Below, piece by piece: positions 2,567 through 10,010 of a DNA stretch of 22,144 bases (position 1 is the stretch's first letter; the number at the start of each line of letters is the position of its first letter). Under the pieces are notes generated by a model. That model searched no databases, had not been told where the DNA came from, and worked only from the letters and a program-made list of their open reading frames with translations. Both the position numbers and the translations under genes were made by a program. Origin of the DNA: a virus; IMG/VR virus record IMGVR_UViG_3300047552_000036, positions 1 to 22,144 of that record; one strand, given 5' to 3'.

Positions 2567-2874
2567 GCTTCACCTCTTGCTCGGATTGCTTTGGCGCAGA
2601 CTTCTGCCGTCAAGTTTGCATAGCCAAGCGGGTCTGATCTTTGTTCACAAATCTTTGCACACGCCTCACGCTCTGTTTTGATAGCAAAATCAACAAAACT
2701 AGGCGGAACCCATGTGTAAATAACTTCCTCACGTAATTCTTGTCTTGCTTTGTCTGCCACCAGTTTGGCAAAGGCTTGAAGGTCTTTTAAGTAGAAATGA
2801 AACGCAGGTGGTTTGTGCCCAATTTCAGTAGCGCCAGCCTGTCTAGCCATCTCAATGATTTCATCGTTACTCAT
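2563..2874 (-). CDS. Small conserved phage protein of unknown function
   Basis: The predicted 103-residue protein starts MSNDEIIEMARQAGATEIG. This ATG at 2874 overlaps the end of the TerS-like gene by 8 bp and is preferred over an in-frame start at 2916 that would run 50 bp into that gene. The protein reads as mainly helical and ends with a REACAKICEQ...AKAIRAR pattern seen in many small proteins of Burkholderiales phages (from memory). It lies between the two terminase genes, but nothing in it shows a role in packaging. No catalytic motif is visible. Confidence 0.75.
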   Translation of the reverse strand: MSNDEIIEMARQAGATEIGHKPPAFHFYLKDLQAFAKLVADKARQELREEVIYTWVPPSFVDFAIKTEREACAKICEQRSDPLGYANLTAEVCAKAIRARGEA

Positions 2875-3304
2875 ACTTTGGCTCCACATCGTCAGGTGCT
2901 TGGATGTTGATACCAATCACGCTAGGTTTCTGACCGTCATCGGGAGCATCCAGCAGACCAGATGCTTTAGCCAAGATACGCAAGACTTGCACTTTGTCAA
3001 AAAGCTCAATCTCAATCGTGGCATTGCCTTCTTTGTCAACTTTCTGACTGATCTTCTTGATTGACTGGAGTGCGTGTTCAGGAATCTTGTTGCTGGCTTT
3101 GACACGGACATTGCCCATGTCATCCCATTCCATGATGTCCGTGATCTTGGTGTTAGCCATTGTGAGCAGGCTATAAGCCACAGCTTCACGGTTGGCAACA
3201 ATAGTCTGTGAGCGTTCAATACGCTGCACCACGTTACGGACTCCACCCCATCCTTTGACAGACGGGTAGGAACCGTTACTTTTCTTTTCGACTTTCTCAG
3301 TCAT
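2867..3304 (-). CDS. terS: Probable terminase small subunit
   Basis: This 145-residue protein has the segment ITDIMEWDDMGNVRVK, then helices leading to IEIELFDKVQVLRILAK and SGLLD near the C-terminus. That order is the one I know from a family of phage small terminases, which bind the packaging site and recruit TerL. The basic N-terminus (VKGWGGVRNVVQRIE) could hold the DNA-binding helices. The gene is just upstream of TerL with one small gene between. There is no good Shine-Dalgarno before the ATG at 3304. Identity rests on pattern recall and context, so it is probable and not certain. Confidence 0.68.
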   Translation of the reverse strand: MTEKVEKKSNGSYPSVKGWGGVRNVVQRIERSQTIVANREAVAYSLLTMANTKITDIMEWDDMGNVRVKASNKIPEHALQSIKKISQKVDKEGNATIEIELFDKVQVLRILAKASGLLDAPDDGQKPSVIGINIQAPDDVEPKYE

Positions 3305-3713: not shown

Positions 3714-3986
3714 TCAAAAAGGGATGTCGTCGTCAGCCATTGGCTGATACGCATTAGCTTTTGCTTTGCTGTGAGGTGTGACAGGAGCCATTGGTTGTTC
3801 ACCACGAGGCTCAACAGGATTACCCAACTTGAGGCTGAACCAGACATCGCCAGTCTTCTGATCCACATTACGCCAGGCAGACAACCAGAATTGTTGTCCA
3901 GTGGAATCAGTCCACTTGCCTGTCAGATCAGGATGAGAGTCTTTCTCTTTGCGTGGGTTCTTACGCAGATTGCCTTTAGCTTCCAT
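3714..3986 (-). CDS. Small SSB-like protein with acidic DDDIPF tail
   Basis: At 90 residues it is about half the usual length of bacterial SSB. It begins with a KGNLRKNPRKEKDSHPDLTG segment, continues as short strands (FWLSAWRNVDQ, DVWFSLKLG), then a Pro-rich linker, and ends ADDDIPF. The acidic tail closing in DIPF is the classic SSB C-terminal hook that recruits replication and repair proteins. The strand-rich core could be a minimal OB-like fold, but that is inference. A strong AAAGGAGAT ribosome site sits before the ATG at 3986. It is the first gene of the packaging operon and follows a leader of roughly 270 nt. Confidence 0.72.
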   Translation of the reverse strand: MEAKGNLRKNPRKEKDSHPDLTGKWTDSTGQQFWLSAWRNVDQKTGDVWFSLKLGNPVEPRGEQPMAPVTPHSKAKANAYQPMADDDIPF

Positions 3987-4262: not shown

Positions 4263-4289
4263 ATTACACAACATTTACTTGTTTGTCAG
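4263..4289 (-). promoter_or_regulatory. Candidate leftward promoter for the SSB/terminase operon
   Basis: Read on the minus strand: CTGACA at 4289-4284 (5 of 6 matches to TTGACA), a 15-bp spacer, then TGTAAT at 4268-4263 (5 of 6 to TATAAT). The spacer is shorter than ideal. It would give a leader of about 270 nt before the SSB-like start at 3986. Confidence 0.3.
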
Positions 4290-4473
4290 GAGTATCTGTG
4301 GCATAGTACACACATGGGGCCATCACTCAGCCCTCCAGACGGTAGGCAGCTAACCAACTGGGATAAACGTACCGAATCCATTGGGACTTCTAGTAGCCAG
4401 ACAGCGAACGGGGCCATACAGGTGGAGCCAGCAAGTGACAATTGCTAGTTAGGTTAGATAAACAAGGTGCTGC

Positions 4474-4487
4474 ATCCACTTGTGGAT
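4474..4487. repeat. Inverted repeat ATCCAC-TT-GTGGAT
   Basis: Perfect 6-bp arms with a 2-bp centre. The small spacing suits a protein-binding site better than an RNA hairpin. It is the left edge of the repeat-rich region next to the initiator-like gene. Confidence 0.5.
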
Positions 4488-4490
4488 ACT

Positions 4491-4508
4491 CTCACTTTTT
4501 TTAGTGAG
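4491..4508. repeat. Inverted repeat CTCACT-N6-AGTGAG with a T-rich loop
   Basis: Arms at 4491-4496 and 4503-4508 enclose six T residues. There is no T-tract after the stem on either strand, so it is not a standard terminator. It follows the previous inverted repeat by 3 bp. Confidence 0.5.
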
Positions 4509-4588
4509 TGCCATAGTTCGTCCATCAAGTAGGTCTAACAGCATTCAGCTAACAGCCAACAACCGAGCATTCCTCGGCAGTTCCAGCA

Positions 4589-4640
4589 GGCTGATTACTG
4601 AAAAAAAATTGCTGTACGGCTGATTATTGAAAAAAAATTG
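4589..4640. repeat. Two 23-bp direct repeats with A8 tracts (iteron-like)
   Basis: Copies at 4589-4611 and 4618-4640 differ at one position (C or T at repeat position 10) and have a 29-bp period. Each starts GGCTGATTA and ends with eight A then TTG. Near-perfect short repeats with phased A-tracts next to a replication-initiator-like gene resemble plasmid iterons or an unwinding element. With only two copies, a regulatory pair is also possible. Confidence 0.65.
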
Positions 4641-4663
4641 TGTCAGGTATCCCAACGCTAGGT

Positions 4664-4686
4664 GGGGGGTAGGGAGGGGGAAAGGG
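4664..4686 (+). other. Canonical G-quadruplex motif
   Basis: Four G runs on the plus strand: G6 at 4664-4669, G3 at 4672-4674, G5 at 4676-4680 and G3 at 4684-4686, with loops of 2, 1 and 3 nt. This fits the standard four-run pattern with short loops. It lies between the A-tract repeats and the CCTGCAC heptamers. Confidence 0.75.
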
Positions 4687-4708
4687 TGTCTTCGCTGCAA
4701 AAGTGAAA

Positions 4709-4733
4709 CCTGCACCCTGCACCCGCCCTGCAC
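4709..4733. repeat. Three CCTGCAC heptamers
   Basis: Exact copies at 4709-4715, 4716-4722 and 4727-4733. The first two are directly adjacent, and the third follows after 4 bp. They sit about 60 bp beyond the stop of the initiator-like gene and may be short binding sites for it. Confidence 0.5.
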
Positions 4734-4793
4734 AAAAGTACACAATGCACCCCTACCGCCTGATTGATACAATGACCATTATGTAAAGTAAGC

Positions 4794-5474
4794 CTAGCTT
4801 AGTAATGCTTTTAGTTTATCTTGCACTTGCTGAAGCGTAGCGCCTTCGCCGCATTGATCCAGCGCCACGGCTAGCAAATCGGGGCCTACCGCCTTTTGTA
4901 GCTGCAATACTTGCGCTTCATTGATTGAATTATTTACTTTATCAACACTAATGCTATCTGATTTTAGATTATTAGCCACTATAAAAGATAAACTGCCTTT
5001 GTCTTCTTTGCGTTTGCGTGCCATTGGTTTGCTCTCTTTCAGTTGATTAAGTGATTGATTTATAAACTCTTTTTGTTCTCTGTCTATCATGTACGGCGGC
5101 TTTTCCCCGCTGACTGCGACTATATCTTCAATGCTTAGGTCGTTGAAGATGATCTGGCGGGTTTGCGCTCTCTCGCCCATGAATCCTTTGTATAGCACGC
5201 GCACGTAACCTTTGGCTATTAGCTTACGGGTTAGCACACTGGCGCGGTTCACCTTCACACCCAGGTGTTTGCCTACTGTCTCTAATCCTACCCATGTGAT
5301 GCCGCCTCGGTTTGCATAGCTGCATAACACCATAAGGCAGCGCAACTCCATTTGAGTTAGGTTTCTATCAGCGGCGGCGCGTATTGGAACGACTGTAAAC
5401 TGGCGCTGATCTGGCGCCTTCTCTTTGCGTATCAGCTTTGGTTTCTTTGGTAACTTAATCGGGGTTTGCTGCAT
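4794..5474 (-). CDS. Winged-helix replication-initiator-like protein
   Basis: A predicted 226-residue protein from the ATG at 5474. Its N-terminal half has a winged-helix pattern of the HTH_36 type: NLTQMELRCLMVLCSYA, then TWVGLETVGKHLGVKVNRAS with a recognition helix, then LIAKGYVRVLYKG as the wing. This domain is common in phage and plasmid replication proteins. The C-terminal half is hydrophilic and ends in a helical LQQVQDKLKALL. Helicase motifs are absent, so it would act as an origin binder. A terminator sits just upstream and a repeat-rich non-coding region just downstream, which supports a replication role. The start is uncertain: a GTG at 5489 and a TTG at 5495 are also in frame, and no clear ribosome site is seen. 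A plain transcription regulator is the alternative. Confidence 0.62.
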   Translation of the reverse strand: MQQTPIKLPKKPKLIRKEKAPDQRQFTVVPIRAAADRNLTQMELRCLMVLCSYANRGGITWVGLETVGKHLGVKVNRASVLTRKLIAKGYVRVLYKGFMGERAQTRQIIFNDLSIEDIVAVSGEKPPYMIDREQKEFINQSLNQLKESKPMARKRKEDKGSLSFIVANNLKSDSISVDKVNNSINEAQVLQLQKAVGPDLLAVALDQCGEGATLQQVQDKLKALLS

Positions 5475-5522: not shown

Positions 5523-5726
5523 CTAGGTTACATGCCGCGCTAACCTTTGCACCTCGCGCAGCCTTCGTACCGCCGCGCTGATTGTCGTTTGTTGACAATC
5601 AAGCATTTGCGCCGCCTTCGTTTGCGTTAGCCCGTTGACTAACACCAAAGCCGCGCCCTTCGCCGCTATGCTTTGCGGGTTTATGCGGGTTAACTGGATC
5701 AATGTTTTGTATTCGTGAAGCGTCAT
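5523..5726 (-). CDS. KorA/TrfB-like transcriptional repressor
   Basis: The 67-residue protein starts MTLHEYKTLI. A helix-turn-helix covers about residues 33-58 (GLTQTKAAQML, then TTISAAVRRLREV). The preceding AAKGAALVLVNG matches the layout of KorA/TrfB of IncP plasmids, where the same ARG-LV-G segment leads into the helix-turn-helix. KorA represses plasmid replication, partition and transfer promoters. The ATG at 5726 begins 4 nt after the upstream stop at 5731; a longer frame to 5777 would run into that gene. A terminator follows. Loss of the KorA C-terminal dimer domain would explain the short length. Similarity is by eye. Confidence 0.65.
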   Translation of the reverse strand: MTLHEYKTLIQLTRINPQSIAAKGAALVLVNGLTQTKAAQMLDCQQTTISAAVRRLREVQRLARHVT

Positions 5727-5730
5727 TGGG

Positions 5731-5892
5731 TTAGCTTTCTGGATGTGGGTTTTCAAAGCATGATTGAGCCACATCAATCAACAATGAGGCTTCCTCATAC
5801 GTTAGCCCGTGATGCTCCGCAAACTTTTCAATCGTAAAATAATCATTGACCCACGATAGATAGAGCCTAGAAAGTGATTCGCGGTCAATCAT
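5731..5892 (-). CDS. 53-residue plasmid/phage accessory protein
   Basis: Translation gives MIDRESLSRLYLSWVNDY... with FAEHHGLTYEEASLLIDVA and an end at NPHPES. The ATG at 5892 overlaps the upstream TGA as ATGA, and GAAGGGGGCGCA precedes it as a ribosome site. The WVNDYFTIEKFAEHHG-type pattern is one I know from small plasmid and phage proteins that often sit next to KorA-like genes. The helix spacing hints at a small helix-turn-helix, but no function is known to me. Confidence 0.8.
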   Translation of the reverse strand: MIDRESLSRLYLSWVNDYFTIEKFAEHHGLTYEEASLLIDVAQSCFENPHPES

Positions 5893-9027: not shown

Positions 9028-9513
9028 TCACTGTGGTAAGCATTCTTCTTCCTTAATCATCTTGGCTCGTTTCAATCTGATCTCACGCTCGACAATGGAC
9101 AATGCCTGCTCAAGCTGCTTGACTGTGCATTCGTCTAGCTGTGCATCATGCACATCCATGCCCAAGTTCACAGCCTGCATCTCAGGTCCTGTAAACAAGA
9201 ACTTGTCGCCATTGCGTAGACCACGTTTGCCCATCTGGTAGATGGCTTCTTGTGCAGCGTTAATCTCTGCTCTCCAGTCAGCACCAAGACCCATCATGCC
9301 AAGCGCCTCTGCCACATTCATGGCTGCGATAACCAAGTCTATGTCGTCACGCTTACCTCTACCTTGCGTGATGTTTGCCAGCGCATCATGGTTCTTAATC
9401 TTCAGCGCCAGCCCTGCGTGTTGCACTTGAGACACAGGCTTCATTCCTGACAACACCCATGCCATCGTGTCCAAGCGAACACCTTTTGGTTTGTATTTGC
9501 TTTTCTTTTTCAT
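9028..9513 (-). CDS. Conserved phage protein of unknown function
   Basis: The 161-residue protein begins MKKKSKYKPKGVRLD and has the blocks MAWVLSGMKPVSQV, IKNHDALANITQGRGKRDDID, and MQAVNLGMDVHDAQLDECT. I know this order from a family found in many Burkholderiales and Pseudomonas phages, without assigned function. It reads as all helical with a basic N-terminal tail. The ATG at 9513 overlaps the upstream TGA as ATGA, so the longer frame to 9576 is rejected. Its neighbours are DNA-metabolism genes (HNH/HTH protein, RusA), which hints at replication or regulation. Confidence 0.8.
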   Translation of the reverse strand: MKKKSKYKPKGVRLDTMAWVLSGMKPVSQVQHAGLALKIKNHDALANITQGRGKRDDIDLVIAAMNVAEALGMMGLGADWRAEINAAQEAIYQMGKRGLRNGDKFLFTGPEMQAVNLGMDVHDAQLDECTVKQLEQALSIVEREIRLKRAKMIKEEECLPQ

Positions 9514-10010
9514 CGCATCAGCCCTGCAAATGGTGATGTGTAGCGAATCCAAGACTTGCCAGCACGGATACGACACACTAAGCTCTTGTCCACACCATAT
9601 CTAGCAGCGACTTGGCGGCTTGGCTCGTCAGACAAGCGAATCTCGTCAGCCTGCTCCCATGTCAGTTTGCCTACTGTGCGCTGCTTGAACGCCTGAATCT
9701 TTACCTTGCGTGTGATGCTTCCACCTGCACGTTTGCCCATGTGCTGTGTGAACTGCTTGGGTGACAACAACTTGCTGTGGTCAGGGTTGACGCACACAGA
9801 ATTGCCACACTTGGGTAGCACGAACCAGCCTGCTTTTACTGGATTGCCCATCAGATCGCGGAATAAGCGACGAACAGATGTCATCTTGCCATCGTGAGAC
9901 ACGGCTGGAACCTTGTTGCCAATGTAGCCAGTCCAATTCCAGCAATCGCCTTCTTCAATTGTTCTCGCTTTGAGCGATTCAATCGTGTGTTTTGTAGTTT
10001 TTCTTGTCAT
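9510..10010 (-). CDS. HNH-like protein with C-terminal helix-turn-helix
   Basis: At 166 residues it starts with a degenerate HNH-like region: GDCWNWTGYIG, then VRRLFRDLMG and a metal-site-like CGNSVCVNPDH. A basic linker follows (KRAGGSITRKVKIQAFK). The C-terminus has a helix-turn-helix, LTWEQADEIRLSD then QVAARYGVDKSLVCRIRAGKSW. The CVNPDH box is found in phage HNH endonucleases, but the central catalytic His pair seen in active enzymes is not clear, so it may only bind DNA. The ATG at 10010 shares a base with the upstream stop (TAATG). Confidence 0.78.
   Translation of the reverse strand: MTRKTTKHTIESLKARTIEEGDCWNWTGYIGNKVPAVSHDGKMTSVRRLFRDLMGNPVKAGWFVLPKCGNSVCVNPDHSKLLSPKQFTQHMGKRAGGSITRKVKIQAFKQRTVGKLTWEQADEIRLSDEPSRQVAARYGVDKSLVCRIRAGKSWIRYTSPFAGLMR

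Follow-up and report, generated by a model that had tools for sequence, protein, structure and literature searches.

The stretch of DNA analysed here (the window) is the whole of a 22,144-base viral record from a podovirus-like phage, whose gene set includes TerL, TerS, a single-strand DNA-binding protein (SSB), an HTH_36 protein, RusA, YqaJ and ERF. Its nearest cultured relative is the Methylophilales (OM43) phage MEP301, with 74% identity in TerL. MEP301 encodes neither a DNA polymerase nor an RNA polymerase (PMC8024684). Upstream of the HTH_36 gene, a small conserved helix-turn-helix protein (5523-5777, minus strand) is retained in many relatives. Two ORFs on the minus strand (520-996 and 9510-10010) resemble HNH endonucleases by eye; they are missing from most relatives and are possible homing endonucleases. 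Since a peptide pattern of the HTH_36 protein gave no near relatives, we used TerL as the bait for collecting related phages. Among the TerL relatives, positions 4293-4522 were 75-90% identical at the DNA level and the adjacent HTH_36 protein was 40-60% identical, with variable DNA between them. A first-pass annotation had proposed a single replication origin at 4474-4760. The conserved unit, which it had missed, extends left beyond that segment to 4310 and is a structured RNA, here called RNA A. The features are collected in Table 1.

Table 1. Positions, strands and supporting details of the features in the window.
Feature	Position	Strand	Details
TerL	1028-2566
TerS	2867-3304
SSB gene	3714-3986	-	Adjoined by terminase genes
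Predicted host sigma70 promoter	4279-4307	+	-35 TTGTTT (4279-4284), 17-nt spacer, extended -10 TGG-CATAGT (4302-4307)
RNA A, structured noncoding RNA, ~210 nt	4310-4520 (ends approximate)	+	Covariation; covariance model match of 236 bits, the window itself belonging to the training set
Hairpin 1	4317-4333	+	Stem 4317-4320/4330-4333; 100% paired, double changes at 2 of 4 pairs
Pseudoknot 1	4324-4510	+	Hairpin-1 loop CACTCA (4324-4329) with TGAGTG (4505-4510)
Hairpin 2	4334-4362	+	Stem 4334-4338/4358-4362; 8 stem sequences, every one complementary
Pseudoknot 2	4346-4473	+	Hairpin-2 loop GCAGC (4346-4350) with GCTGC (4469-4473); 100% paired
P3, long-range	4371-4454	+	ACC (4371-4373) with GGT (4452-4454); conserved GATAAAC on both flanks
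P4 with P5 nested inside	4377-4426	+	P4 4377-4382/4421-4426; P5 4384-4390/4410-4415
P6, variable hairpin	4427-4449	+	93.5% paired, double changes at 4 of 5 pairs
P7 hairpin, ATCCAC-TT-GTGGAT	4474-4487	+	74% of cells paired, double changes at 4 of 6 pairs
Hairpin CTCACT-T6-AGTGAG	4491-4508	+	Alignments
A-tract repeats GGCTGATTAYTGAAAAAAAATTG of origin-like element	4589-4640	+	A-tract in 42 of 43 relatives (strict pattern)
G-run/G-quadruplex (G4) motif of origin-like element	4664-4686	+	Sole G4 in the window
Three CCTGCAC heptamers	4709-4733	+	Not conserved
HTH_36 winged-helix protein, 226 aa, candidate initiator	4794-5474	-	Pfam HTH_36, E 7e-9

We aligned RNA A from viral stretches that carry the exact 19-mer TAGATAAACAAGGTGYYGC. 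The 54 stretches gave 46 distinct sequences, one of which (L103) was a chance match, leaving 45. An unbiased scan of column pairs returned a helix at 26-29/50-53 with 8 stem sequences, a long-range helix of 3 bp with 7 combinations, and the pseudoknot CACTCA/TGAGTG. Over 30 sequences and 49 pairs, 95.3% of cells were paired compared with 82.4% in shuffled alignments, none of which equalled the observed value; this count includes the second pseudoknot, GCAGC/GCTGC, which was added to the scanned helices. Double changes occurred at 29 of the 49 pairs, and in controls with the partners shifted by 1-3 columns at most 46% of cells paired. Pseudoknot 1 was paired in all 30 sequences with three of its pairs double-changed, and P3 was 100% paired through 7 pair combinations. 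P4 and P5 were paired in 98.9% and 92.7% of cells, respectively. The single-sequence folding energy of RNA A does not improve on that of shuffles (z 0.02), so it is covariation that carries the fold. The plus strand was favoured by RNAalifold (-80.6 vs -67.0) and by the content of the helices, which hold 158 G-U cells vs 20 A-C cells. The two close inverted repeats that the first-pass annotation had counted among the parts of an origin can be read directly in the sequence, and both turned out to be hairpins at the 3' end of this separate RNA (P7 and the hairpin at 4491-4508). The latter has its 3' arm in common with pseudoknot 1, and in place of its T6 loop other clades have C6 or TCTCTC. Pairing of such poly-U or poly-C loops with the A-tract or G-run was considered and dropped, because clades with C6 have A-tracts too.

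A host sigma70 promoter is predicted immediately upstream of the fold. Across 41 upstream regions its position was constant, with spacing of mostly 16-17 nt and a near-constant distance to the first stem; in MEP301 it reads TTGCAA-N17-TATAAT and ends 8 nt ahead of the first stem. The mean promoter score was 8.2, compared with 7.2 (sd 0.9) for shuffles. Because this excess amounts to about one sd, we rely more on the position and on the agreement with MEP301 than on the score. The predicted transcription start thus coincides with the 5' edge of the RNA A fold. Other occupants of the SSB-HTH_36 intergenic region were also seen. In four relatives (L024, L023, L077 and L039) the same promoter leads, in place of RNA A, into a terminator-like hairpin, an ORF and a further stretch that seems to be structured; the ORF in L039 is an HNH endonuclease by eye, and neither L024 nor L039 had a match in Rfam 15. 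In a further clade (L059, L061, L062, L067, L071, L073 and relatives) the slot holds a different conserved stretch of ~250 nt with a TTGACN-type promoter. This stretch has the motif GGGATAAACG in common with RNA A and may be a distant relative of it or a second RNA class; with few sequences, RNAalifold leaves both strands possible.

A covariance model built without either pseudoknot matched MEP301 at 33428-33615 with a score of 67.9 bits and, according to the database searched, E values of 1e-16 to 1e-18. A relaxed two-motif pattern retrieved at least 119 stretches, some of these candidates being non-members, and the model confirmed at least 38 loci, plus 21, beyond the first 45 sequences, some of them near-identical to one another. 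RNA A thus occurs in roughly a hundred aquatic phage and viral sequences, about 60 contigs of which lie beyond the 45 first aligned. In this second set, whose alignment was fitted to the covariance model, 94.8% of cells were paired compared with 64% in the control, and 32 of 35 pairs were double-changed; P3 was again 100% paired, and P4 and P5 reached 94.8% and 96.3%. In distant members pseudoknot 2 was formed by GACAC/GTGTC, GGCAT/ATGCC, GATGC/GCATC and GAGCC/GGCTC, and pseudoknot 1 by CCACCAG/CTGGTGG and ACAACCAG/CTGGTTGT. We then exchanged the partner strands between sequences, in a candidate set that contains some non-members. Own partners formed at least 5 bp of pseudoknot 2 in 72% of cases vs 14% when swapped, and at least 6 bp of pseudoknot 1 in 77% vs 29%. 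The window itself has the model match and both pseudoknots by which we define the family.

Neither the window nor MEP301 (L143) matched any of the 4227 families of Rfam 15 at gathering scores, and lax Rfam searches with three members returned chance-level matches only. No match to RNA A was found in the literature, preprints and many subscription papers lying outside that search. A blastn comparison of the noncoding region with cultured phages gave a single 22-nt match, which was attributed to chance, and the 19-mer occurred 13 times in bacterial genomes, about the chance expectation, in no case preceded by the second core motif. The covariance model found no RNA A in 369 genomes belonging to a single class, which is a weak negative as the set had no positive genome. 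RNA A was likewise absent from cultured phages with a related TerL (L144, L146-L148) and from HTVC010P (L145). GOLLD and ROOL are also orphan structured RNAs from phage and metagenome sequence; RNA A differs from them in its length of ~210 nt, its double pseudoknot and its lack of a match in Rfam 15. We are highly confident that RNA A is a conserved and new structured RNA. The novelty concerns the RNA family, and no new biochemical mechanism is claimed.

The remaining features of the segment at 4474-4760 belong to DNA. As the first-pass annotation had stated, the segment holds no convincing gene, and the individual motifs it listed were all recovered. The 23-bp direct repeats (4589-4611 and 4618-4640) differ by one mismatch at a period of 29, and none of 60 dinucleotide shuffles matched them; their A8 tracts (4601-4608 and 4630-4637) are two of just four runs of at least seven A on the plus strand. 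The G4 motif is the sole one in 22 kb on both strands (1 of 2000 shuffles), and the CCTGCAC heptamers start at 4709, 4716 and 4727 (0 of 2000 shuffles). Conservation separates these motifs. An A-tract followed by a G-run beside the HTH_36 gene was present in 43 of 43 non-redundant relatives vs 5.6% of shuffles, whereas CCTGCAC occurred two or more times in the window only, among the regions of the same 43 relatives. A-tract copies number 1-3 per relative and are often single; L022 has three 28-nt copies. A G4 on the RNA-sense strand was found in 23 of the 43 relatives vs 0.6% of shuffles, and in clade L059-L070 and in group 2 (described below) the run is C-rich on that strand, so that the strand of the G-run switches in some relatives.

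MEP301 has the same arrangement in 33428-33918: RNA A, then an A-tract/G-run, which includes its only G4 there, beside the HTH_36 homologue gp55. Neither element is annotated in MEP301, and unlike in the window a short ORF lies between them. This ORF (~33681-33878, plus strand) is unannotated, small and cysteine-containing, and appears DUF1289-like by eye. The annotated gp54 (33584-33730), a hypothetical protein of 48 aa, lies on the strand opposite RNA A, where it overlaps the RNA's 3' end, and is unlikely to be a real gene.

Cumulative GC skew, which the first-pass annotation had offered as a check on its origin, fell steadily over the window with no minimum at 4474-4760. The minimum in MEP301 (34562) lies ~0.65 kb from its A-tract/G-run and coincides with a switch in gene strand, so that it counts weakly in favour of an origin there, and we dropped skew as decisive evidence. 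The HTH_36 protein matched PHROG initiator families at E 0.017-0.054, and a structure search with a low-confidence model gave winged-helix/MarR-like matches only, none under E 0.001; these results suggest that its gene may encode an initiator. By position and composition, the A-tract/G-run is slightly more likely than not to be part of the phage origin. Like the iteron origins of lambda (ori/O) and of plasmids (Rep), it combines repeats and an A-rich stretch with a neighbouring gene for a winged-helix DNA-binding protein. Unlike them, it has no more than 1-3 copies of the A-tract, its G-run is not always on the same strand, and its heptamers are unconserved. The stretch holds two independent elements, the 3' end of RNA A and an origin-like DNA element, neither annotated before. 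A single plasmid-like origin of the iteron type, spanning the entire stretch as first proposed, would fit the joint conservation of the A-tract repeats, the G-run and the neighbouring HTH_36 gene. With the inverted repeats belonging to RNA A, the heptamers unconserved and RNA A separable from the rest, such an origin is already contradicted as one unit and very improbable, though the A-tract part may still serve an origin.

The separability became apparent from the genome positions of RNA A. In group 1, which includes the window and MEP301, RNA A lies on the strand opposite the SSB-TerS-TerL operon and points at the HTH_36 gene. In group 2 RNA A and an unrelated TerS/TerL pair are divergent, and a DUF1376/O-like initiator lies ~4 kb off. 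In group 3 it lies upstream of a YqaJ-like nuclease, and one member adjoins what we take, from its sequence, to be a primase-helicase-like gene. In L157/L185 and relatives (L185/L219/L228) it directly follows TerL on the same strand; in L185 and L219 the A-tract stays beside SSB, ~3.8 kb away. Some phages have the A-tract element and no RNA A, and others RNA A and no A-tract element. The changing neighbour genes favour a trans-acting RNA.

If RNA A were instead a cis-acting origin RNA, resembling ColE1 RNA II or the mitochondrial CSB II primer, then the transcript from the promoter at 4279-4307 would enter the A-tract/G-run, form an RNA-DNA hybrid and prime replication from its 3' end. RNA A does resemble ColE1 RNA II in being structured, in its host sigma70 promoter and in its direction toward an origin-like A/G-rich stretch. 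It points into the A-tract/G-run in the window group and MEP301, and in group 2 into noncoding DNA with direct repeats. DnaA boxes are also enriched beside it: the perfect box TTATCCACA occurred 24 times in 47.7 kb near RNA A vs 8 times in the remaining 581 kb of these loci, a 36-fold enrichment that hints at a link to replication. The boxes fall in three phylogenetically clustered sets, lying ahead of the promoter in one, whereas in the other two they are close to the 3' end of the RNA and may face either way; occurrence at the same place in opposite orientation suggests a role in the DNA rather than in the RNA. Because no DnaA box lies near the window's own RNA A and the boxes cluster in three lineages, they may be independent gains, perhaps for promoter control. 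Against a cis primer, the fold differs from that of RNA II, no antisense partner was seen, and the pyrimidine tract of RNA A does not follow the A-tract. A primer of the CSB II type calls for a G-run on the non-template strand, but the run is C-rich there in L059-L070 and group 2. Above all, a fixed cis arrangement of primer RNA and origin as in ColE1 does not hold where the two elements occur one without the other or ~3.8 kb apart, so RNA A is not a fixed cis primer of the A-tract/G-run. We consider a cis-acting origin RNA unlikely, and RNA A probably acts in trans.

Two further roles for RNA A appear less likely still. A packaging RNA for the terminase would recall phi29 pRNA, which is also phage-encoded and structured, with loops in tertiary pairing, and often lies beside packaging genes; terminase genes adjoin RNA A in three arrangements that involve two different TerL families. 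However, RNA A has no Rfam match, group 3 members adjoin a YqaJ-like nuclease instead, and the terminases here are ordinary ones, which have no known RNA requirement. About equally doubtful is a role in cis as the regulatory leader of the following gene, in the manner of a riboswitch or attenuator: a same-strand ORF comes after RNA A in group 3 and also, unannotated, in MEP301, where a leader role is conceivable, but window-like phages have no convincing downstream gene on the RNA A strand and the downstream genes vary among groups.

The explanation we prefer, with reasonable though not strong confidence, is that the stretch combines two adjacent and independent elements, a sigma70-transcribed, trans-acting RNA A and an A-tract/G-run unwinding site of an origin. 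Host sigma70 RNA polymerase would transcribe RNA A, probably early. The transcript would fold into a compact core in which the loops of two 5' hairpins are both pseudoknotted to the 3' part and a P3-P4-P5-P6 domain is set between two GATAAAC strands. RNA A would most likely be a trans-acting factor, either a folded RNA or an RNP, and would act while polymerase-less phages such as MEP301 take over the host replication machinery; that it is both trans-acting and linked to this takeover is conceivable, at somewhat less than even chances. The A-tract repeats and G-run beside the HTH_36 gene would most likely be the unwinding site of the phage origin. More speculatively, RNA A could be a new trans-acting class, possibly a ribozyme or the core of an RNP, with which polymerase-less phages take over or time host-driven replication, its double-pseudoknot core being kept across unrelated phage groups as its genome position moves. 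Conserved complex folds in widespread phage RNAs are rare and tend toward important roles. The presence of RNA A in a cultured phage that infects an abundant clade of marine methylotrophs makes its function directly testable, and the adjoining conserved A-tract/G-run provides a concrete origin candidate for this phage group.
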